IMG/VR virus record: IMGVR_UViG_3300021197_001518
Coordinates: 1 to 31,468 of that record
Reading direction: 5' to 3' (one strand)
Length of the DNA: 31,468 nucleotides
Origin: a virus
Every line of letters begins with the position of its first letter. The first letter of the stretch is position 1. Below, one piece after another: positions 7,049 to 25,161 of this stretch. A program made the translations under genes and the position numbers. Under the pieces are notes generated by a model. The model saw only the letters and a program-made list of their open reading frames with translations. It was not told the DNA's origin and made no database searches.

Positions 7049-9910
7049 ATGTCAGTTAAAAAATTTAAATTCGTATCTCCCGGTGTATTCACCAAAGAGA
7101 TTGACAACTCTCAGCTCCCAGCAGCTGATCGACCAGCAGGGCCAGTTATTATTGGCCGCCTACCACAAGGCCCAGCAATGGAGCCAGTTAAGGTAAATTC
7201 CTTTTCGGAATACGTAGAGGTTTTTGGTAACCCGGTCCCCGGCAAAGCAACAGGCGATGTTTGGCGACATGGTAACTACCAAGGGCCAACTTATGCAGCA
7301 TATGCGGCACAAGCTTATCTAAGAAACAGCGATGACGCTATTACAGTCGTCAGGCTTGCAGGACAAAAGAATCCTGATGCAGGAGCACCCGGCGCAGCAG
7401 GGTGGGGAACAGAAAACATGTCCACATCTTACGCAACAGCCGGCGGAGCATATGGGCTTTATATATGTAACAGCGGATCCGGAGCACAGGATGGATATCT
7501 TGCGGCTGTTTGGTACTTCCCATCAGGCGGTGCCGTAAGTCTTAGTGGTTCTTTAGCCGGAACAACTGCTGAAACAGGCGGGGTCGGTGGTCTATTTAAA
7601 GCAGCACCAGACGTTGGATCCAGTAAAGGCCCAGATTTTACAGCGATTGTTCACAAGAACGACGGCACGGCACTTTACAAGACAACATTCAATCTTGACC
7701 CAGCTTCTAGAACGTTTGTTAGAAAAGTTTTCAACACGAATCCGCAATCTACAGGGGGTATTATTCCCGCAGATACATTTACTAATGGCGAAAATCTTTA
7801 TTGGCTCGGAGAAACATACGAATCGTTTATCCAGAAGCAATTGGATCTCGCAACTTTGACAGATACAGCATATGCAGTCATTCTTCCATTCGCCACCAAT
7901 ACCAAGTCTGATTATAACTTCGACGCGACCAGTGCCTCAACAGGGTGGTTCTTTTCTCAGGACATCTCAACAGACTCTGCTGCATGGACCGCAAATAAAA
8001 TGCAGAAATTATTTAAGCTTCATGCACTAGAGCCGGGAAAATGGGTTCAAGATAATATCAAGGTTTCTATACAAGATTTGACTTATTCCAGAGACATCAC
8101 CGGTGCAGCTCCTTACGGAAGCTTTACTCTTATTCTTAGAAGAGCTGACGATACAGACAACGTTGTGGAAACTATCGAAAGATTTTCTAACTGCAATCTT
8201 AATCCTTTGTCAGATAATTACATTTCAAAGAAGATTGGAGATAAATACAGAAAATGGAGCGCAACAGAAGGCGTAATGAGAGAATATGGCGAATATGATA
8301 ATGCCTCAAAATATGTAAGAGTGGAAATCGACGATACGGTCAGAAACGGCATTGCAGACCCAACTCTTTTACCATTCGGTGTATTCGGTCCCGACAAAAT
8401 CAAAAATGTGGAAGTACCCGAACTTGCAAGTGGTATCACTCCTGCAACAGTATTGACCAAGGGGTTAACAGCACCCCCCGGAATGACTCCGGGAGTCGGT
8501 ACTGACGGTTCAATGAATACTGGATCAATTTCATCATACACTGCTTTGTTGAAATTCCCAGAAACTCAATTAAGAATCTCTTCATCAGCAGGCGGATTAG
8601 TCGATCAAACTAACGCCTACTTTGGACTGAATGCTTCTTCTTACCTAGAAAATACAGCTGGTGCTTACTCAAGCAATAAAGCAGACGCAGGATACGCTGA
8701 TTATGTGTATCCTCTTGGTAGCATCCTTCCAGCTGACAAAGAGCCATCATGGGCGTTCTCTCTCGACAACATCAGTGGGTCATCCGACGAACAGTTCGTT
8801 TCTTATCAGCCAGATTCTAGGACATCTGGGGAATCAATTTCTGCCGTCAGCGGTTGGAGAGAAGTTGTTGATAACGGATGGACAAGATTCACTTCTCCAT
8901 TGTTTGGTGGATTCGACGGCTTAAATGTAGTCGAAATCGAACCATTCAGAAACGAGGGAATGGATGGAAAGAACATGCAAAACAGCTATGCTCTCAATAC
9001 TTTGAGACAGGCAGTAGATTTAGTCGCTGATCCAGAAATCGCAGATTATAACTTGATGACTGTCCCCGGAATTACTGATAGAAATATCACTGATCAAATG
9101 CTTCAAGTGTGTGCCGATAGAGGTGACGCATTAGCAGTAATCGACATTCAAGATGTCTATACACCTTTTACAGAAAACTCTACTTCTTACAGTAATGTAA
9201 CGGAGCGAGCAGGAACTGTTTCCGGCGCGATTACAAAATTAGAAGACAGACAGGTCAACAACTCATATGGTTGTACTTACTATCCTTGGGTTCAGATCCA
9301 AGATACTGTAACTTCCAACAGTAGACTATGGGTTCCACCTTCAGTAGTTGCTTTGGGAACTTTTGCTTCCTCGGCTGCTCAAACAGAAGTGTGGTTTGCA
9401 CCTGCCGGCTTTAACAGAGGCGGTTTATCACAGGGTTCCGCAGGAATCCCGGTATTGAATGTAAGTCAAAGATTGACTTCCAAGGAAAGAGACTCTCTTT
9501 ACGATGCCAATATTAACCCAATCGCCTCTTTCCCGAATGAAGGAATTGTAATCTTCGGACAGAAGACCCTTCAATTAACTCCATCGGCCCTCGATAGAAT
9601 TAATGTTCGCAGAATGATGATCTTCGTTAAGAAGCAAGTATCAATCTTCGCAAACTCTATCCTCTTCGACCAAAACGTTGAAGTTACTTGGAATCGTTTC
9701 AAGAGTTTGACCAATCCATTCCTAGCAAGTGTTCAAACGCGCTTAGGTTTGAGTGATTACAAACTTATCTTGGACAAGACCACAACAACCCCAGACTTGG
9801 TTGATAGAAATATCGTATATGCCAAGATTTTCTTGAAGCCTGCAAAGGCCATCGAGTACATCGCGCTTGACTTTGTTATCACAAATCAAGGTGCGGCTTT
9901 TGAAGACTAA
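7049..9910 (+). CDS. Contractile tail sheath protein (gp18-like)
   Basis: This is the outer tube that contracts during infection. The N-terminus reads 'SPGVFTKEIDNSQ' followed by 'AGPVIIGRLPQGPAM', the usual sheath handshake and first-strand region. The C-terminal part from about residue 770, including 'NEGIVIFGQKTL' at about 828 and 'RINVRRMMIFVKKQ', is the conserved sheath C-terminal domain that carries the interlocking strands. At 953 residues it is far longer than T4 gp18 (659), so the extra length must be surface domains inserted between about residues 120 and 640. A good ribosome site (AGGAG at 7034-7038) precedes the ATG. The tail tube gene follows 47 nt later, the standard sheath-tube order. 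Identification is firm; the role of the insertions is unknown. Confidence 0.95.
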   Translation: MSVKKFKFVSPGVFTKEIDNSQLPAADRPAGPVIIGRLPQGPAMEPVKVNSFSEYVEVFGNPVPGKATGDVWRHGNYQGPTYAAYAAQAYLRNSDDAITVVRLAGQKNPDAGAPGAAGWGTENMSTSYATAGGAYGLYICNSGSGAQDGYLAAVWYFPSGGAVSLSGSLAGTTAETGGVGGLFKAAPDVGSSKGPDFTAIVHKNDGTALYKTTFNLDPASRTFVRKVFNTNPQSTGGIIPADTFTNGENLYWLGETYESFIQKQLDLATLTDTAYAVILPFATNTKSDYNFDATSASTGWFFSQDISTDSAAWTANKMQKLFKLHALEPGKWVQDNIKVSIQDLTYSRDITGAAPYGSFTLILRRADDTDNVVETIERFSNCNLNPLSDNYISKKIGDKYRKWSATEGVMREYGEYDNASKYVRVEIDDTVRNGIADPTLLPFGVFGPDKIKNVEVPELASGITPATVLTKGLTAPPGMTPGVGTDGSMNTGSISSYTALLKFPETQLRISSSAGGLVDQTNAYFGLNASSYLENTAGAYSSNKADAGYADYVYPLGSILPADKEPSWAFSLDNISGSSDEQFVSYQPDSRTSGESISAVSGWREVVDNGWTRFTSPLFGGFDGLNVVEIEPFRNEGMDGKNMQNSYALNTLRQAVDLVADPEIADYNLMTVPGITDRNITDQMLQVCADRGDALAVIDIQDVYTPFTENSTSYSNVTERAGTVSGAITKLEDRQVNNSYGCTYYPWVQIQDTVTSNSRLWVPPSVVALGTFASSAAQTEVWFAPAGFNRGGLSQGSAGIPVLNVSQRLTSKERDSLYDANINPIASFPNEGIVIFGQKTLQLTPSALDRINVRRMMIFVKKQVSIFANSILFDQNVEVTWNRFKSLTNPFLASVQTRLGLSDYKLILDKTTTTPDLVDRNIVYAKIFLKPAKAIEYIALDFVITNQGAAFED

Positions 9911-19000: not shown

Positions 19001-19102
19001 ATAAATTTGAACGCTTTTGAAACGTCGATCGATGCTGTGTTTGAGACTTCTGGTGATGGAGTCTTTTCTTTGACATCAGAAAAAGAAGATGGGGGAAACT
19101 GA
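16043..19102 (+). CDS. Large baseplate hub-type structural protein
   Basis: A 1019-residue protein, likely the central baseplate hub. The N-terminal 350 residues are mostly helical and charged. The middle contains 'LSKLVPEIKLFKVIYDKN' and 'GIKSFSWEYKGSDPFSVD', then strand-rich sequence with 'LELYFQDFSEFTRDRPEGY'. The C-terminal 150 residues include 'MFGNNFFRPGSYIYVDPK' and 'GLGGYHIVTGVTNKI', the pattern of hub proteins whose beta-barrels continue the tail tube. It follows the LysM-like gene, as the hub does in related phages. It is much longer than T4 gp27 (391), so extra domains are fused. No lysozyme signature was seen. A TAGGAAAA ribosome site precedes the ATG. Confidence 0.7.
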   Translation: MSVQIPELIMTLINSGLGTTLVGWNYALYDAVQSVDLLKKQFGEDGLTQDQLSPWYEASIKDNFLNIYDDFGKDRTDLLDTESYTVTRTDESGARVTETFIRDKYPLVKSYKSLVEKEFGGAFYGEVSEFNSIFLNPNNSQNEKALTTNLNNSIRLNFTPSLSEAGTIFRDRIVYDSNDAVERGLKGATYLDVLKAYSLYLSLKNYSVVEEKIKTTTTTSGEKLEDDNLRRQIFRYLNDLEKRGTLAQRELGNFINDVADAQSAINASKFDKQRYLIENIETIQELSKERFKHQLSTADINFLDGEFGQLLGIEQTRILKFTNSSKNAVNRIVGASRATEMFRLPTVQLSKLVPEIKLFKVIYDKNLQKEKEVEIRFPTKFVGAERIDVDGQLSDNSNYKKPSLKDPYDFLGTKTGYGIKSFSWEYKGSDPFSVDRDIEATLELYFQDFSEFTRDRPEGYRYVDLLLPADEEKAPLDKVFNQGVRVKAGWAVPQSLEIESDGDAIDLDAYETNQKKINAIKASQVNLVLDMVDYNISFENNGNGASTIAINYRARTEALGKNRLVNVIGATREEAATTQYLEDKISTSKDPEEKEELRKRQQDLFERIRSLSSKRFIEKLMDNRSIYWRKLNLPETMASALGEKKGKEYFLIVRPEQTWKKKYIDGLKLSLDQLNPVGAGGVGPVAPVNVQDLELFTMVNDDSQIVNPTKIMYTFLGDILQVALENAVESGSYLGAPKSALEDLKLALLDFRVGEETYNLADLPIEMNVFLEFLHNSIGKRNEHTKSFINFTNELLSEILINRVDSYLNLKDATSRSFKIGYAEMNKELLGNFAKSYDLDRRSDVDTINKLDKQDNLFVYSDSPDPSSYKITNYEDSKENDEKNGLHHFSLGSTKGIVKNISFDRIDIEYIREQRLTVNPEDPYALLSNVFNVNVSMFGNNFFRPGSYIYVDPKIMGNLGNPWQVGTIANRMGLGGYHIVTGVTNKINLNAFETSIDAVFETSGDGVFSLTSEKEDGGN

Positions 19103-19103
19103 T

Positions 19104-20315
19104 ATGACTGACCTGAACCTTAACAACCAAACGTCTGTAGAAGAAACCTTTATTAAAAGACTGTTATACGATTTGCTGGCTTTCAATACACTAGAAGGAG
19201 CCAGCCTAGACAACCCAGCTGGTATCAAGGACTATTGGAAACTAGAAAATCTATTATTTGGAAAGGTAAAGCCCTCATTAGAGGTGATGCAACCACTCAA
19301 TACTTCTCTCGTTTCTATCCCCAACCAAGATAAGACTTACTTTACTTTCCCGGAAATTTCTGATAAATTTATATCTTTTCAAAATTCTTTTAGAATACCA
19401 TCTCAGTCCGGCAGGCTTTCAGAAGATATTTACTTAAACTCTCCAGAGATATACAGGGCCTTTGTTGATTCGGAATCCTCATATAACGAGGCTATGACAC
19501 TAATTTTAAGCAAATATAATGGAATTATTCTACAAAACTCGAAAGCAGAACAAGTAAAGAATATTAAAGATTACGCTGGATTATTTTTTAATTTTATCTT
19601 AGGCTCCAACATGTCTGAGAAGATAACTAAGACTTCTTTCATTTTGTCTAGTAAGGTATCTGCTATAAATTCTGGACTGTGTATCGAGATAGCTGACCTA
19701 GATCCGTCTAACAATGGTGATAAACAGTCATTTATTCAAGGAAGCAACTTCGAATTTTATCGACAAACAGCCGTAAACAATGGGTTTGTTATCGACAAGA
19801 ATATTCCGTGGAGAATAAACTTCGATTTGTCATCCCCAGTTACTCCTGATAGAGATTACTTTTTAGATAGAAACTTTTCAGAGACACGTCAAGGGGACTT
19901 GGATGCATTAATATCTCTTGTTGTGGTTGGGTACAATTCTCTTGTAAGGCAGAAAAACTATTATATGGAAGGCCGATGCAAGTACGCAAGATTTCCTATT
20001 GACAAGGAAGTAGTACTCAGGGATGTATTATCTACCAGCTATTGGATAAAAAGGTATTGTCAAATCAGGAACTGGGAATCTGGAAACATATATACGACTT
20101 CTGAAATTGAAAAGATGGCTCAAATCGCTATTGACCTTGACGATACTTTACTATCTTATGTTAGTTCTAAATTTAGAATCCCTTATTTATTTGAGGGATC
20201 CACTGTTTATCGAGATCTCAAGAAATATTATTTAGAAAAAAACAACATTTCACTTGACAATTTCTCTGAACATGTTAAAATAATAGTAAAGAATTCGATA
20301 AACAAAATATATTGA
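19104..20315 (+). CDS. Unknown protein at the end of the structural block
   Basis: I do not recognise this 403-residue protein. I chose the ATG at 19104 over the one at 19089 because GGGGGAA (19091-19097) is correctly placed for it and it starts 1 nt after the hub stop. Visible features are a helical N-terminus, 'IKDYAGLFFNFILGSNM' in the middle, 'VDSESSYNEAMTLILSKY' and a tyrosine-rich C-terminal half ('TSYWIKRYCQIRNWESG'). There is no signal peptide, Walker motif or clear repeat. The place after the hub suggests a virion protein. The last part of the gene also holds a sigma-70 promoter for the polymerase. Confidence 0.65.
   Translation: MTDLNLNNQTSVEETFIKRLLYDLLAFNTLEGASLDNPAGIKDYWKLENLLFGKVKPSLEVMQPLNTSLVSIPNQDKTYFTFPEISDKFISFQNSFRIPSQSGRLSEDIYLNSPEIYRAFVDSESSYNEAMTLILSKYNGIILQNSKAEQVKNIKDYAGLFFNFILGSNMSEKITKTSFILSSKVSAINSGLCIEIADLDPSNNGDKQSFIQGSNFEFYRQTAVNNGFVIDKNIPWRINFDLSSPVTPDRDYFLDRNFSETRQGDLDALISLVVVGYNSLVRQKNYYMEGRCKYARFPIDKEVVLRDVLSTSYWIKRYCQIRNWESGNIYTTSEIEKMAQIAIDLDDTLLSYVSSKFRIPYLFEGSTVYRDLKKYYLEKNNISLDNFSEHVKIIVKNSINKIY
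20254..20281 (+). promoter_or_regulatory. Sigma-70 promoter upstream of the DNA polymerase gene
   Basis: TTGACA (20254-20259), a 16-nt spacer ending in TGT and TAAAAT (20276-20281) match the consensus 11 of 12 with an extended -10 element. The predicted start lies about 35 nt before the polymerase TTG. It marks the change from structural to replication genes, as expected for an early or middle host-read promoter. A weaker copy with the same spacing is at 20725-20752 inside the polymerase gene. Confidence 0.65.
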
Positions 20316-20322
20316 GGCTTGC

Positions 20323-21507
20323 TTGTTGTTCCAAACACTCGACGATAAAAAAGAATGTGTCGGCATATATCATGCTGGAGAACTTTCCTTCAAAGATGGA
20401 CTTCCAAAAGATCTAGAAAAGACATGGGCCTATTCAGCTTTTCTGCAAGATCGAGATATTGAATATGCTAAGATTTATTGTGGGGGAAATACACTCGATA
20501 AAGCATGTCCGGAGGCCCTGAGAGGCCGCTGGGAAGCAGTATCAAATAAACTTAAAGCTTTTATCAAGTCTTTTGGTACATCGCGTGTATCGCTAAATGA
20601 GAGCTGTTTTTTCGATTTAGTTCCTCAAAAGTTTCTTTTAGAGTATTGCTATACAAAAGATCTTATTTGTCAACACGTTTTCGAAACATACCAAAAGCCA
20701 GACAACTACGATTACCTTCTGGAATTGACAAAAATTATTGAAGAAATAAAATATAATAGATTGAATTTAAATGTGAAAAACCTATCACTGTATCGAGCAA
20801 AGCATCGAAAGTTTTTAAAGAAATTAAAAACTCTACAGCCCTATTGTAAGTTTAATATCTGGGGAACCAAGACAGGCCGACTTACGACAATCGCAAAGAG
20901 TTTTCCTATACTGACCATGGATAAGGAATTCAGGAGTATCATAGAGCCAAAGAATGATTATTTTGTGGAATTGGACTTCAATGCAGCAGAGCTAAGAACA
21001 TTGCTTTCCCTACAAGGCCGAGATCAGCCGCCTGAAGATATGCATGAGTGGAACATTAAAAACGTCTTCAAGGGAGATCTCACTAGAGCAGAGGCTAAAA
21101 AGAGAATATTTGCTTGGTTATATAATCCAGAAAGTCACGATCCTTTGTGCGAACACGCTTATGGGAGAGAGTCAGTGACACAAAAGTACTTCACACAGGG
21201 TCAGGTGACAACCTTTTGGGGCAAAATCATTCCATCAGAGAAGAGAACAGCACTAAATTATATTATTCAGTCAACTTGTGCTGAAAATGTACTGAGACAA
21301 ATGATAAAGCTAGCTAATTACTTAGAGGGGTGTAAATCGTATGTTGCTTTTCCGATCCATGATTCTGTTGTATTGGACTTTTCAATCGAGGACAAAGAAA
21401 GACTCGGAGAAGTCATAAACATTTTTGCAAATACAGAGCTTGGAAAATTCAAGGTAAATGTAAGTGTCGGAACAAACTTCGGCAATCTTCAAAAGCTGGA
21501 GGTTTAG
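20323..21507 (+). CDS. polA: Minimal family A DNA polymerase, polymerase domain only
   Basis: The gene starts at TTG, with TGAGG overlapping the previous stop. The 394-residue protein has the ordered motifs of family A polymerases: 'GTKTGRLTT' (TGR at 184-186); motif A 'ELDFNAAELRTL' with catalytic D218; a shortened fingers region with motif B 'RAEAKKRIFAWLY' (R255, K259, F263, Y267); 'ALNYIIQSTCAENVLRQM'; and motif C 'FPIHDSVVLDF' with H346 and D347. The usual HDE is HDS here, so one carboxylate is missing. There is no 3'-5' exonuclease domain. The length is well below that of E. coli Pol I (928) or T7 gp5 (704), so proofreading must come from another protein or be absent. It is the likely replicative polymerase, given gp32, helicase and RecA nearby. 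It ends with no gap before the tubulin-like gene. Confidence 0.9.
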   Translation: MLFQTLDDKKECVGIYHAGELSFKDGLPKDLEKTWAYSAFLQDRDIEYAKIYCGGNTLDKACPEALRGRWEAVSNKLKAFIKSFGTSRVSLNESCFFDLVPQKFLLEYCYTKDLICQHVFETYQKPDNYDYLLELTKIIEEIKYNRLNLNVKNLSLYRAKHRKFLKKLKTLQPYCKFNIWGTKTGRLTTIAKSFPILTMDKEFRSIIEPKNDYFVELDFNAAELRTLLSLQGRDQPPEDMHEWNIKNVFKGDLTRAEAKKRIFAWLYNPESHDPLCEHAYGRESVTQKYFTQGQVTTFWGKIIPSEKRTALNYIIQSTCAENVLRQMIKLANYLEGCKSYVAFPIHDSVVLDFSIEDKERLGEVINIFANTELGKFKVNVSVGTNFGNLQKLEV

Positions 21508-22335: not shown

Positions 22336-22366
22336 AATTTAATTCACTTTATTAACAACAAACCAG

Positions 22367-22390
22367 CAGAGCGAGAGATTTGTCGCTCTG
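22367..22390 (+). promoter_or_regulatory. Leader hairpin upstream of gp32, possible autoregulatory site
   Basis: CAGAGCGA (22367-22374) pairs perfectly with TCGCTCTG (22383-22390) around an 8-nt loop ending TTTG. No T tract follows, so it is not a terminator. It spans -67 to -44 relative to the gp32 ATG, about where T4 gene 32 mRNA has its autoregulatory pseudoknot. The loop TTTG could pair with CAAA near 22411, and the following leader is A-rich and unstructured. Regulation is inferred by analogy. Confidence 0.5.
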
Positions 22391-22433
22391 ACTATAGCCA
22401 ATACCGGCACAAACAACAAGAGAGGAAAGAAAG

Positions 22434-23204
22434 ATGGCATTAGACATCGCACGAATTCGAGCACGACTCGACAATGTAAAGAACAACGGCAAAGCTGGAG
22501 GATCATTCTGGCGGCCAAAAGATGGAACTCAAACAATCCGAATTGTCCCAACGCAAGATGGCGACCCCTTCAAGGATTACTGGTTCCACTACAATCTAGG
22601 CCCAGATCAACGCGGCGGCCTTCTATGTCCCAAGAAGAACCATGGAGATGATTGTCCAATTTGTGACTTCAAAGACCAGCTTTGGAAAGAATTTAATGAC
22701 ACCCAAGACCAAGACACGATGAAGATGGCAAAAGATTTGTCACCACGTCAACGTTTCTTTTCACCCGTCCTAGTTCGTGGTGAAGAGGCCGAAGGCATTC
22801 GAGTGTGGGGTTACGGCAAAGAGGCTTATACTTCTCTGCTAAACTTGGTCCTTAACCCAGAATACGGAGATATTACCGATGTTGATGCTGGTACTGATCT
22901 GACTTTGACTTATGGGAAGCCACCCGGAGCTAGCTTCCCTAAGACAACCCTCACACCTCGCCGTCGCGCAAGTCAGCTTTGTGACGAAGCTGTCGGCGGT
23001 GATGAAGAGTGTACTCGACTCTTGGATAATATTCCAAGCTTTGACAATCTCTTCCAAGTCAAGAGCGCAGATGATGTTCAACAAGCCTTGGACGGCTTTA
23101 TCGCCTCTCTTGAAGGCGAGACAGAAGGCTCTGTATCAGAACTAGTAGTCAACGAAGGGACACCTGATGTCCTCGCTGCTTTTAACGAGTTGACCGGTAA
23201 CTAA
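22434..23204 (+). CDS. gp32: gp32-like single-stranded DNA-binding protein
   Basis: The 256-residue protein has the gp32 layout: an N-terminal basic cooperativity segment ('IARIRARLDNVKNN'); 'FWRPKDGTQTIRIVPT' opening the OB-fold; a zinc-binding set C65, H70, C74, C77 ('CPKKNHGDDCPIC'); and 'FFSPVLVRGEEAEGIRVWG'. An acidic C-terminus follows that in T4 recruits helicase, polymerase and UvsX. T4 gp32 has 301 residues, so this is slightly short. It coats replication and recombination intermediates. AGAGGAAA gives a good ribosome site, and a hairpin leader and dedicated promoter lie upstream. A terminator ends the unit at 23225. Confidence 0.93.
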   Translation: MALDIARIRARLDNVKNNGKAGGSFWRPKDGTQTIRIVPTQDGDPFKDYWFHYNLGPDQRGGLLCPKKNHGDDCPICDFKDQLWKEFNDTQDQDTMKMAKDLSPRQRFFSPVLVRGEEAEGIRVWGYGKEAYTSLLNLVLNPEYGDITDVDAGTDLTLTYGKPPGASFPKTTLTPRRRASQLCDEAVGGDEECTRLLDNIPSFDNLFQVKSADDVQQALDGFIASLEGETEGSVSELVVNEGTPDVLAAFNELTGN

Positions 23205-23224
23205 GTAGTGTCTCTAACCGCAGG

Positions 23225-23257
23225 GAGGCATGGGTTCATAGATGCCTCATTTTTTTA
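23225..23257 (+). terminator. Rho-independent terminator after gp32
   Basis: GAGGCAT (23225-23231) pairs with ATGCCTC (23242-23248) around a 10-nt loop, followed by A and seven or more T. It lies 20 nt after the gp32 stop and would isolate the gp32 transcript. Confidence 0.88.
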
Positions 23258-23276
23258 TTAATCCCAAGAGGAAAAC

Positions 23277-23780
23277 ATGACAACTGAAAAGACTAAAACA
23301 AATACGCTTACAACAGCAACCGAGGGAGCAGATGCTACCGTCCACTATCGAGGTACTTTGGTGGAGGATGGCAGTGAATTTGACAACTCACATACCCGTG
23401 GAGAGCCGATCACTTTCACTGTTGGGTCCGGACAAATGATTCCGGGATTCAACAACGCAGTGGATGGTATGACAGTGGGAGAAACAAAGACTGTTACTCT
23501 TTCACCTGATCAAGCCTATGGGGATCTAAATCCAGAAGCTAAAACAACTTTTCCCAAATCTGGCTTTCCTGATGGAGTTGACTTGCGGGAAGGCATGGCA
23601 GTGCCTCTGCGAGCACCAAACGGACAAACTCTTATTGGTCGATTGACCGAATTTCAAGAAGACACGGTAACCGTTGACTTGAATCACCCGCTAGCTGGAC
23701 AAGCTCTTCAGTTTGAAATTGAGCTTGTAGAAGTTACAACCACTACCACCACTTCAACCGATGAGGAAATCGCTACCTAA
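23277..23780 (+). CDS. SlyD-like FKBP peptidyl-prolyl isomerase
   Basis: The 167-residue protein contains a full SlyD-type FKBP: 'EGADATVHYRGTLVEDGSEF' then 'DNSHTRGEPITFTVGSGQM' and 'IPGFNNAVDGMTVGETK', an inserted flap domain at about 85-135, and the hallmark 'DLNHPLAGQALQFEIELVEV'. It speeds proline isomerisation and, through the flap, holds unfolded proteins. The metal-binding His-rich tail of E. coli SlyD is absent and replaced by a Thr-rich acidic tail. The first 20 residues are also Thr-rich. AGAGGAAAA precedes the ATG. Near-identical terminator repeats lie on both sides. Bacterial-type FKBPs are uncommon in phages, so acquisition from a host is inferred. Confidence 0.92.
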   Translation: MTTEKTKTNTLTTATEGADATVHYRGTLVEDGSEFDNSHTRGEPITFTVGSGQMIPGFNNAVDGMTVGETKTVTLSPDQAYGDLNPEAKTTFPKSGFPDGVDLREGMAVPLRAPNGQTLIGRLTEFQEDTVTVDLNHPLAGQALQFEIELVEVTTTTTTSTDEEIAT

Positions 23781-23804
23781 TAACATGCGCGTTGTGACCG
23801 CAGG

Positions 23805-23836
23805 GAGGCATGGGTTTACAGATGCCTCACTTTTTA
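23805..23836 (+). terminator. Rho-independent terminator after the FKBP gene
   Basis: GAGGCAT (23805-23811) pairs with ATGCCTC (23822-23828), followed by AC and five T. It is a near-copy of the terminator after gp32. No promoter was seen between it and the uvsX unit, so downstream genes probably depend on partial read-through. Confidence 0.82.
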
Positions 23837-23848
23837 CTAGGAGAAAAA

Positions 23849-24043
23849 ATGAATATTCTTAAAGAAAACCGAGTTGTTTCAAACTCTTTTATTGTTGCAA
23901 CACTTCTTTCCATCACCTTATCAATTGCAATTTGGGCAGGTGCTACCGGAGAAAGTCTTGAACAAACCCAGAGGCTTGCTCTCTTCGTTGGCCTTTGGGC
24001 TCCCACCTTTATGGGTTTTGCAAATTATTATAAGGAGGAGTAA
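23849..24043 (+). CDS. Small two-helix membrane protein
   Basis: The 64-residue protein starts at ATG 23849 with TAGGAG; an earlier TTG at 23810 lies inside the terminator stem and is unlikely. Two hydrophobic helices at about residues 12-31 ('SFIVATLLSITLSIAIWAG') and 43-58 ('LALFVGLWAPTFMGFA') are joined by a polar turn with Gln and Glu. There is no cleavable signal peptide. It overlaps the uvsX start by 1 nt (TAATG), so the two are translationally coupled. No family is recognised. A role in the host inner membrane is inferred from hydropathy only. Confidence 0.75.
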   Translation: MNILKENRVVSNSFIVATLLSITLSIAIWAGATGESLEQTQRLALFVGLWAPTFMGFANYYKEE

Positions 24044-25161
24044 TGGCAAGAAAAGCAACTTCATCTGCTGGAAAGCTTTCTATGGCAGACATGAAAAAGA
24101 TGATCAATAAGAAAGCGGGCATGAATGTTGCTCACGATCTGAACGAGGCAAACCCAACAGAGGTTACTCAGTGGATTCCTACAGGATCTCGATGGCTTGA
24201 TTCAATTATATGCAGAGGAAAGTATGCGGGAATTCCAGTTGGGAAAGTATCCGAAATTGCTGGATTGGAGGCGACAGGTAAATCCTACATGGCAGCTCAA
24301 ATTGCTGCCAATGCCCAAGATATGGGGATTGATGTCGTTTATTTTGATTCAGAATCGGCGATTGATCCCTCGTTTCTTGAAAACGCTGGCTGTGATTTGA
24401 CAAGGCTTCTTTACGTGCAGGCACAGTCGGTTGAGTTTGTGCTTGAAACCATTGAGGACCTCTTGGCATCAGAAAACCAGATGTTATTTATCTGGGACTC
24501 TTTGGCTTTGACACCTGCTGTTAGTGAAGTCGAAGGCAGCTTCGATCCTATGTCGCAGATGGCGATGAAGGCAAGAATTCTTGCACGAGCTATGTCTAAA
24601 CTTGCACTGCCAATTGCAAATGCGAATGCAACACTGCTTGTTCTGAACCAATTGAAAACAAACATTACTCGCATTGCAGCCGAAGCTATGACTACACCGT
24701 ATGTCACACCCGGAGGGAAAGCCATGGCTTATGCCTACTCTCTCCGGGTTTGGTTGACAGGCCGCAAAGCAAAGGCAAGCTTTGTTCTCGACGACAACGG
24801 CTTTCGAATTGGGTCTGAAGTAAAAGTCAAACTTGAAAAGTCCCGCTTTGGAACCGCTGGCCGCCGATGTAACTTCCGAATCTTGTGGGGAGGAGACAGT
24901 GTAGCAATTCAAGATGATGAATCTTTGTTTGATGCAGTGAAATCTTCGGACAATATTCTTCAATCTGGTGCTTGGTACACCATGGTCTTCGAAGATGGGA
25001 CAACAGAAAAGTTCCAAGCAGCCAAATGGGTTGAGAAGATGCAAAACGATAAGTTTCGTCAGCGTGTTTATCAGATTATTGATGAGGAAGTCATTATGAA
25101 ATTTGATCAGCGTCAGGGCAGTGCATCCGATTTCTATGACTCTGAAGAAGAAGCAGACTAA
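24043..25161 (+). CDS. uvsX: UvsX/RecA-type recombinase
   Basis: This ATP-dependent strand-exchange protein acts in recombination-dependent replication and repair. The 372-residue product has Walker A 'GLEATGKS' (74-81), Walker B 'LFIWDS' (D152), 'LNQLKTNI' at about 201 and an L2-like 'TPYVTPGGKAMAY'. The first 40 residues form a polymerisation-type basic helix. Length is close to T4 UvsX (391) and E. coli RecA (353). The acidic C-terminus ('DFYDSEEEAD') is typical. The gene overlaps the upstream membrane protein by 1 nt. It should work with gp32 and the helicase encoded on either side. Confidence 0.93.
   Translation: MARKATSSAGKLSMADMKKMINKKAGMNVAHDLNEANPTEVTQWIPTGSRWLDSIICRGKYAGIPVGKVSEIAGLEATGKSYMAAQIAANAQDMGIDVVYFDSESAIDPSFLENAGCDLTRLLYVQAQSVEFVLETIEDLLASENQMLFIWDSLALTPAVSEVEGSFDPMSQMAMKARILARAMSKLALPIANANATLLVLNQLKTNITRIAAEAMTTPYVTPGGKAMAYAYSLRVWLTGRKAKASFVLDDNGFRIGSEVKVKLEKSRFGTAGRRCNFRILWGGDSVAIQDDESLFDAVKSSDNILQSGAWYTMVFEDGTTEKFQAAKWVEKMQNDKFRQRVYQIIDEEVIMKFDQRQGSASDFYDSEEEAD

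Follow-up and report, generated by a model that had tools for sequence, protein, structure and literature searches.

An H-type pseudoknot behind the stop codon of phage gp32 genes and its possible role as a 3'-boundary element

Gene order and repeats at the locus

The window, i.e. the whole stretch of DNA that was analysed, is a complete virus record of 31,468 bases. The genes and RNA features around the repeats are the following.

22365..22396, plus strand: hairpin in the 5' leader of gp32, AG-(8 bp)-GANATTNG-(8 bp)-ACTNTA
22434..23204, plus strand: gene for a gp32-like single-stranded-DNA-binding protein (SSB), 256 aa (PF08804, E 1.9e-12; PHROG 1192 SSB, E 1.7e-27)
23217..23248, plus strand: pseudoknot copy 1; P1 23217-23219 with 23233-23235 (ACC:GGT), CAGG 23221-23224, P2 23225-23231 with 23242-23248
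23249..23256, plus strand: T-rich tract behind copy 1, ATTTTTTT, from the sequence
23277..23780, plus strand: slot gene for an FKBP-type prolyl isomerase, SlpA/SlyD-like, 167 aa (Pfam FKBP_C, E 4e-23)
23797..23828, plus strand: pseudoknot copy 2; P1 23797-23799 with 23813-23815, P2 23805-23811 with 23822-23828
23849..24043, plus strand: second slot gene, a predicted membrane protein of 64 aa (PHROG 23295, E 5.1e-8, unknown function)
24043..25161, plus strand: UvsX/RecA-like recombinase gene, the downstream border of the slot (PF00154, E 9.1e-35; PHROG 97 UvsX, E 6.6e-57)

A first reading made from the sequence only had reported near-identical 39-nt copies on either side of the SlyD-like gene, and this was confirmed. 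The copies (23217-23255 and 23797-23835) are direct repeats 580 nt apart, identical at 36 of 39 bases and without any difference in their first 20 nt. A third match to these 20 nt with at most 3 mismatches was found nowhere across the 31,468-base record, and none occurred in 100 shuffles. Each copy contains a 7-bp stem without mismatches that closes a loop of 10 nt (23225-23248 and 23805-23828), with T-rich sequence behind it. The feature proper (23217-23248 and 23797-23828) is shorter than the 39-nt repeats. Copy 1 sits at the 3' end of the gp32-like gene and begins 12 nt past its stop codon, and copy 2 begins 16 nt past the first stop of the FKBP ORF, which ends in TAATAA. The best PDB match of the FKBP is SlpA/SlyD-like (8.7e-27, residues 14-153). 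The 64-aa protein, whose membrane character is a prediction from sequence, has relatives in four other loci (L005, L007, L083 and L085).

Two further observations were made in the window. Of two neighbouring ORFs at 19089-21507, only the second (394 aa) matches family-A DNA polymerase, and the polymerase is possibly split over two genes. On the minus strand, at 8615-8686, a sub-threshold Rfam match to Fibro-purF (23.9 bits against a gathering threshold of 60) is probably due to chance.

Relatives and distribution of the element

Loci were collected by searching with gp32, from which the best 80 of 595 relatives were taken, and with FKBP, which gave 7 loci. A DNA motif pattern, with gp32 not preselected, yielded at least 120 viral contig stretches, and a scan of 84,980 species genomes from bacteria and archaea with the same kind of pattern yielded 32 contigs. 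A covariance model, R1, was built from 103 sequences. Both copies of the window, which are themselves part of the model, match it with 59.4 bits and E 5.8e-13 (copy 1) and 61.8 bits and E 1.4e-13 (copy 2).

R1 matched 67 of the 79 gp32 loci searched, L022 being omitted as it lies on the same contig as L083. The 12 loci without a match were classified by reading their sequences: 7 carry another pseudoknot, 4 (L019, L020, L055 and L063) a plain hairpin at the element's place, and 1 (L036), in which the gp32 frame is broken, could not be assigned. The alternative pseudoknot after gp32 (L010, L011, L012, L014, L015, L017 and L023) differs in sequence and reads ACCG-TTT-stem-G-CGGT, with a P1 of ACCG:CGGT and an A-rich last loop, TTAAAATAA, followed by ATTTTT. 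In L006 and L018 a plain hairpin follows gp32 and the element follows FKBP. Two elements of different class lie in tandem behind gp32 in L037 (2806-2889), each with a T-run.

Among the 32 cellular contigs, R1 confirmed only L215 and L235, L221 scoring 26 bits. L235 is a Flavobacteriales MAG contig. In L215 (CP070664.1, a WOR-3 chromosome record) a module of gp32, element and uvsX lies inside a 2.8-Mb bacterial MAG chromosome record, where it is either a provirus or an assembly artefact.

Positions were counted on 253 copies in 177 loci, recognised by script as CC[AG]CAGG with a perfect P2. From this count 19 loci repeating contigs already present (or the window) were left out, as were 32 loci comprising unconfirmed GTDB pattern hits and L241/L242; one doubtful match (L173, position 988) was kept. 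With the gp32 relatives limited to the best 80 of 595 and the motif pattern to at least 120 stretches, all totals are lower bounds, to be read as "at least", and as many loci are near-duplicates the counts are not independent events.

In the window, no Rfam 15 match with E up to 5 overlaps the element, and none was obtained for L037, L114, L066, L021, L112 and L010 (E up to 1). A literature search, which covered few subscription papers, returned no published description of such an element. The RNA family is thus apparently undescribed so far: it looks like a new 3'-end family, a phage intercistronic or 3' RNA element with an H-type pseudoknot fold. Its host phages, known from many metagenome contigs, are probably marine. 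The best gp32 matches in phage records stay below 60% identity, with no close cultured relatives; in phages Mel-JY01 and immuto gp32 adjoins recA, with 8 and 2 nt between them. A known parallel is the L17 downstream element (RF01708), which PMC2864571 describes as a conserved RNA that potentially belongs to the 3' UTR of a single gene. The phage element is likewise a conserved RNA in a potential 3' UTR, but it differs in gene, hosts and structure from what is described there, and it has no Rfam match. The same paper calls structured-RNA regulation in bacterial 3' UTRs highly unusual. The present family adds a strongly covarying RNA, widespread in uncultured and probably marine phages, 3' of the SSB gene.

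Pseudoknot structure and covariation

The unit is a pseudoknot and not a simple hairpin, because the loop of the stem pairs with bases just 5' of it. Its 32 nt comprise a 3-bp P1 (NCC with GGN') and a 7-bp P2, with conserved joining bases RCAGG, R and A-AG, and the consensus can be written N-CC-R-CAGG-P2(7)-R-GG-N'-...A.AG-P2'(7)-A. As expected of the H-type, there are two helices, one loop pairs with the flank, and both helices covary; the structure is well supported. Over 102 distinct sequences, 99.5% of cells are paired, against 89.0% in shuffles, and double-change cells number 120 against 40.4, a value reached by 0 of 500 shuffles. These shuffle tests are inflated by related sequences, and cruder measures do not rise above shuffles (double-change pairs, 5 against 3.9; further pair types, 13 against 12.3). 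Sliding the register lowers pairing to 23-56%.

P2 is paired in 100% of cases, with double changes in 4 of its 7 pairs. Its variants include GAGGCAT:ATGCCTC, GAGGCAC:GTGCCTC, GAGGCCC:GGGYCTC and GAGGCCT:AGGCCTC, and further GGGGCAT:ATGCCCC, AAGGCAT:ATGCCTT and AGGGCAT:ATGYCCT. P1 is paired in 98.3%; both its inner C-G pairs are invariant, and the outer pair occurs as all four Watson-Crick types. In 79 distinct CCG-class copies this N:N' pair is Watson-Crick in 65 (A:T 36, C:G 17, T:A 7, G:C 5), of G-T type in 7 and unpaired in 7, where 20,000 permutations gave a mean of 26.9 and a maximum of 42. The changes are not one inherited event, because copies within single genomes differ in the pair (A:T and G:C in L003, A:T and T:A in L007, A:T and C:G in L021). 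The base that follows CC is likewise coupled to the first base of the loop (G/G 145, A/A 63, A/G 7, G/A 0). Pair 15-34 is GC in 61 sequences and GU in 41, with G-U on one side only, as expected of RNA made from the gene strand rather than of a DNA site.

In six loci (L112, L114, L128, L141, L143 and L235) the last loop is expanded while P1, P2 and the ends are kept; by eye, most of these loops hold a further hairpin. The stem of copy 1 alone is G+C-rich and stable (about -10.8 kcal/mol). In a 77-nt context, the predicted minimum is a different fold and the z-scores against shuffles (0.18 for copy 1, -0.83 for copy 2) are not significant; folding energy alone would therefore not reveal the element, whereas comparison does.

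The slot between gp32 and uvsX

Where a locus has both gp32 and uvsX, nearly all copies (209 of 213) are located between them. The distance between the two genes ranges from 61 to 3576 nt over 149 loci, and the number of copies in the slot is one (93 loci), two (46), three (8) or zero (2). The sequence-only reading had expected relatives with one copy and no FKBP, and a slot of varying content. Both were found: 26 of the 149 slots are at most 102 nt long, each with exactly one copy and no FKBP, and FKBP occurs in 26 of 149, the rest having other genes or short spacers without it. Nor is the repeat a genome-wide standard terminator of the phage, an outcome which that reading had set against its own proposal. 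This candidate was rejected, as 40 records, several of them of 146-293 kb, gave 0-4 matches each, nearly all in the slot of the long records. What failed is a bracketing specific to FKBP: among 29 loci in which FKBP adjoins an element, the element lies in front in 27, behind in 14 and on both sides in 12.

Slot-like genes also occur together in another large contig (L245; also the 180-kb and 281-kb contigs of L087/L088), where FKBP and a repetitive lipoprotein-like ORF are accompanied by a 67-aa ORF similar to a slot protein and by a weak match to the element. Slot genes may travel as a set.

Anchoring behind stop codons

An ORF ends within 150 nt upstream of 251 of the 253 copies, at 5-14 nt for 226 of these. 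The median distance past the stop is 9 nt and stays at 7-9 nt in every bin of intergenic length, while the spacing to the next start widens from 18 to 177 nt; the Spearman correlations with intergenic length are 0.23 and 0.93, respectively. Some of the long start distances reflect small genes missed by the start rule; elsewhere tRNA genes, promoters or terminators follow the element. Because the distance to the stop is fixed and that to the start grows, the element goes with the upstream gene. An operator of the downstream gene was rejected since the spacing to the start is not constant.

The upstream gene is gp32 for 146 copies, and the downstream genes are diverse (uvsX 52, FKBP 28 as clustered, and many small proteins). 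In none of the 177 loci do copies occur on both strands, and in 167 of them gp32 lies on the same strand. Copies outside the slot also follow shortly past stop codons, namely those of ORFs that resemble a nucleotidyltransferase (L243), an AAA-type protein (L244) and, behind an FKBP, a lipoprotein (L245), the names being our own reading of the sequences.

Termination and 3'-boundary role

We lean slightly towards reading the H-type pseudoknot, as part of the upstream gene's 3' UTR, as a 3'-boundary element, which would end or protect the upstream mRNA. It is preferred because of the anchoring behind stop codons, the exchange with other stable 3' structures and the presence of U-tracts against weak canonical termination. 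The pseudoknot would form in the 3' UTR, mostly 5-14 nt past the stop, and the upstream message, above all that of SSB/gp32, would gain a defined exonuclease-resistant 3' end. Where a U-tract follows, the element would terminate transcription; otherwise it would cap the end that is left when the RNA is cleaved, or transcription terminates, within the A/U-rich, G-poor linker. With each gene bringing its own 3' element, gain or loss in the slot would leave the gp32 message undisturbed, and the locus would show a way to arrange accessory genes in a hypervariable slot that leaves the expression of core genes intact.

REP/BIME-type elements are intercistronic mRNA stabilisers of enterobacteria, and lambda sib is a retroregulator. 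The present element resembles them in that a structured RNA, intercistronic or 3'-terminal, would govern the upstream message; it differs in being phage-borne and tied to gp32 and in its sequence and fold, and its effect on mRNA is one that we infer. Against this reading, the conservation of CAGG and A-AG is stricter than an exonuclease block or a terminator needs, which suggests a specific partner. The element is a compact test case for the way in which a phage terminates and protects the messages that it needs most.

The copies had been described as terminators in the sequence-only reading. The stem with T-rich sequence behind it stands, but the unit is a covarying pseudoknot and mostly no canonical terminator. 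That these are ordinary intrinsic terminators which happen to be repeated, the pseudoknot adding little, seems to us unlikely. As in an intrinsic (Rho-independent) terminator, a G+C stem is followed by a T-rich tract in many copies: the best-offset U-tract score (offset 0-3 nt) is at least 4 in 91 of 215 copies, a value reached by 5.1% of random positions, 3-4 in 54 and below 3 in 70, and the first 10 nt past P2 hold 2.7% G, 45% T and 36% A. A plain hairpin with a T-run also occupies the same place in L019, L055 and L063. However, just 5 of the 215 copies pass a canonical composite terminator score, the T's without an offset are no nearer the stem than in shuffled flanks (2.41 against 2.43), the U-tract is delayed or missing in a third, and a clade of five loci (L060, L066, L074, L075 and L077) has no T-run. 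The element is moreover a pseudoknot with conserved loops, in which P1 covaries and CAGG, outside the stems, is invariant, and it is not used genome-wide.

A further terminator-like hairpin was found within 90 nt in 7 of 216 distinct downstream contexts, one of them being a second copy of the element; in these 7 the element is not the sole terminator, because a further hairpin follows. Such classic hairpins lie at most 90 nt downstream in L040, L043, L049, L093, L094 and L195. A promoter directly behind the element was rejected as a general rule, as the pattern is not clearly enriched there (6 of 216, against 74 of 4000 random 90-mers). In six loci a near-consensus TTGAC..TA---T promoter directly follows the element (L004 at 5354, L005 at 5613, L007 at 5912, L084 at 4461, L133 and L162), perhaps marking a new transcription unit in those phages.

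Comparison with the gene 32 operator of T4

PMC535899 and PMC3014915 describe the translational operator of gene 32 in T4, RB69 and T2 as an H-type pseudoknot in the 5' leader. The phage element is likewise an H-type pseudoknot at a gp32/SSB gene with A/U-rich single strand after it, and it could be a binding site of the phage's own gp32, similar to the T4 operator but placed 3' of gp32, where the bound protein would either retroregulate the gp32 message itself or obstruct the start of the gene that follows (uvsX, FKBP). We hold this to be decidedly unlikely. In its favour, gp32 is present in 167 of the 177 loci, the linker behind both the T4 and the phage pseudoknots is A/U-rich and G-poor, and the T4 leader can be read as GCC-A-GCTATGA-GGT-AAAGTG-TCATAGC, which has the same plan of 3 bp and 7 bp with a 6-nt last loop. 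Yet the T4 pseudoknot sits in the 5' leader with a first loop of 1 nt, against 5 nt (RCAGG) in the element, which lies 3' of gp32, is fixed to the upstream stop and not to the downstream start, and has several copies, some of them behind unrelated genes; the leader of the phage gp32 carries a different hairpin. R1 found no significant match in two 4-kb T4 stretches, one of which holds gene 32, and nothing in the gene 32 region with filters off; the likeness of the helix plan is by eye.

A broader variant, in our estimate a long shot, is that gp32 recognises the pseudoknot at the 3' ends of its own message and of those nearby, and that its excess would, together with the leader hairpin, retroregulate the whole slot. 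Were this so, the element would correspond to the T4 gene 32 operator moved to a new place, controlling replication and accessory genes. The family is a test case for a possible 3' version of the gp32-pseudoknot control known from T4-type phages.

T4 also offers a parallel for the preferred 3'-boundary reading, since, according to PMC3014915, no T4 mRNA is more stable than that of gene 32, in which an RNase E site lies near the stop codon. The T4 gene 32 3' terminator hairpin lies at the same place, shortly past the gp32 stop, but it is a plain GGGGACC...GGTCCCC with six T's and no pseudoknot, and it is a terminator by its sequence only.

Recoding, ligand binding and recombination

It is very improbable that the element is a recoding (readthrough) signal, binds a metabolite or keeps ribosomes from scanning and reinitiating. 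Readthrough pseudoknots have a similar spacing behind the stop, which the 5-14 nt seen here resembles, and invariant bases such as those of the element are ligand-like. Nevertheless, the in-frame extension is open in 156 of 194 cases, against 142 and 163 for the other frames, the spacer lengths modulo 3 are distributed 77/60/57, and the stops are mostly TAA (122 of 194); with no excess of open frame and a spacer out of phase, stop-codon readthrough was rejected, neither a conserved in-frame extension nor a constant spacing being found. No common metabolic gene lies behind the element, which speaks against metabolite binding.

The sequence-only reading had also proposed that recombination between the copies removes the gene, as in a swappable cassette. 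The slot is indeed variable (61-3576 nt, mostly 1-3 copies), but a DNA recombination boundary is extremely improbable, and a recombination site was rejected, as the covariation is of the RNA type with one-sided G-U and the copies of one genome are hardly more alike than those of different genomes (0.864 against 0.835 identity over 44 genomes) and frequently fall into different classes, with unlike R bases in 13 of the 44 and unlike N bases in 27. The identity pattern thus gives little sign of recombination or concerted evolution. In FKBP genomes identity is 0.923 against 0.920/0.910, and 0.888 across positions.

A second structure in the gp32 leader

The leader hairpin with the octaloop GANATTNG was found at 88 places in 88 loci, one in each, with 59 distinct sequences. 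All 8 pair positions vary with pairing kept, each having at least 2 pair types; as the search demanded at least 7 of 8 pairs, it is this diversity of pair types that is informative. The hairpin is a candidate autoregulatory or 5'-stabilising element of gp32. With the leader hairpin 5' and the pseudoknot 3', the gp32 message seems to have a conserved RNA structure on either side. In several relatives the hairpin lies, by eye, directly behind a TTGACA/TATATT promoter.
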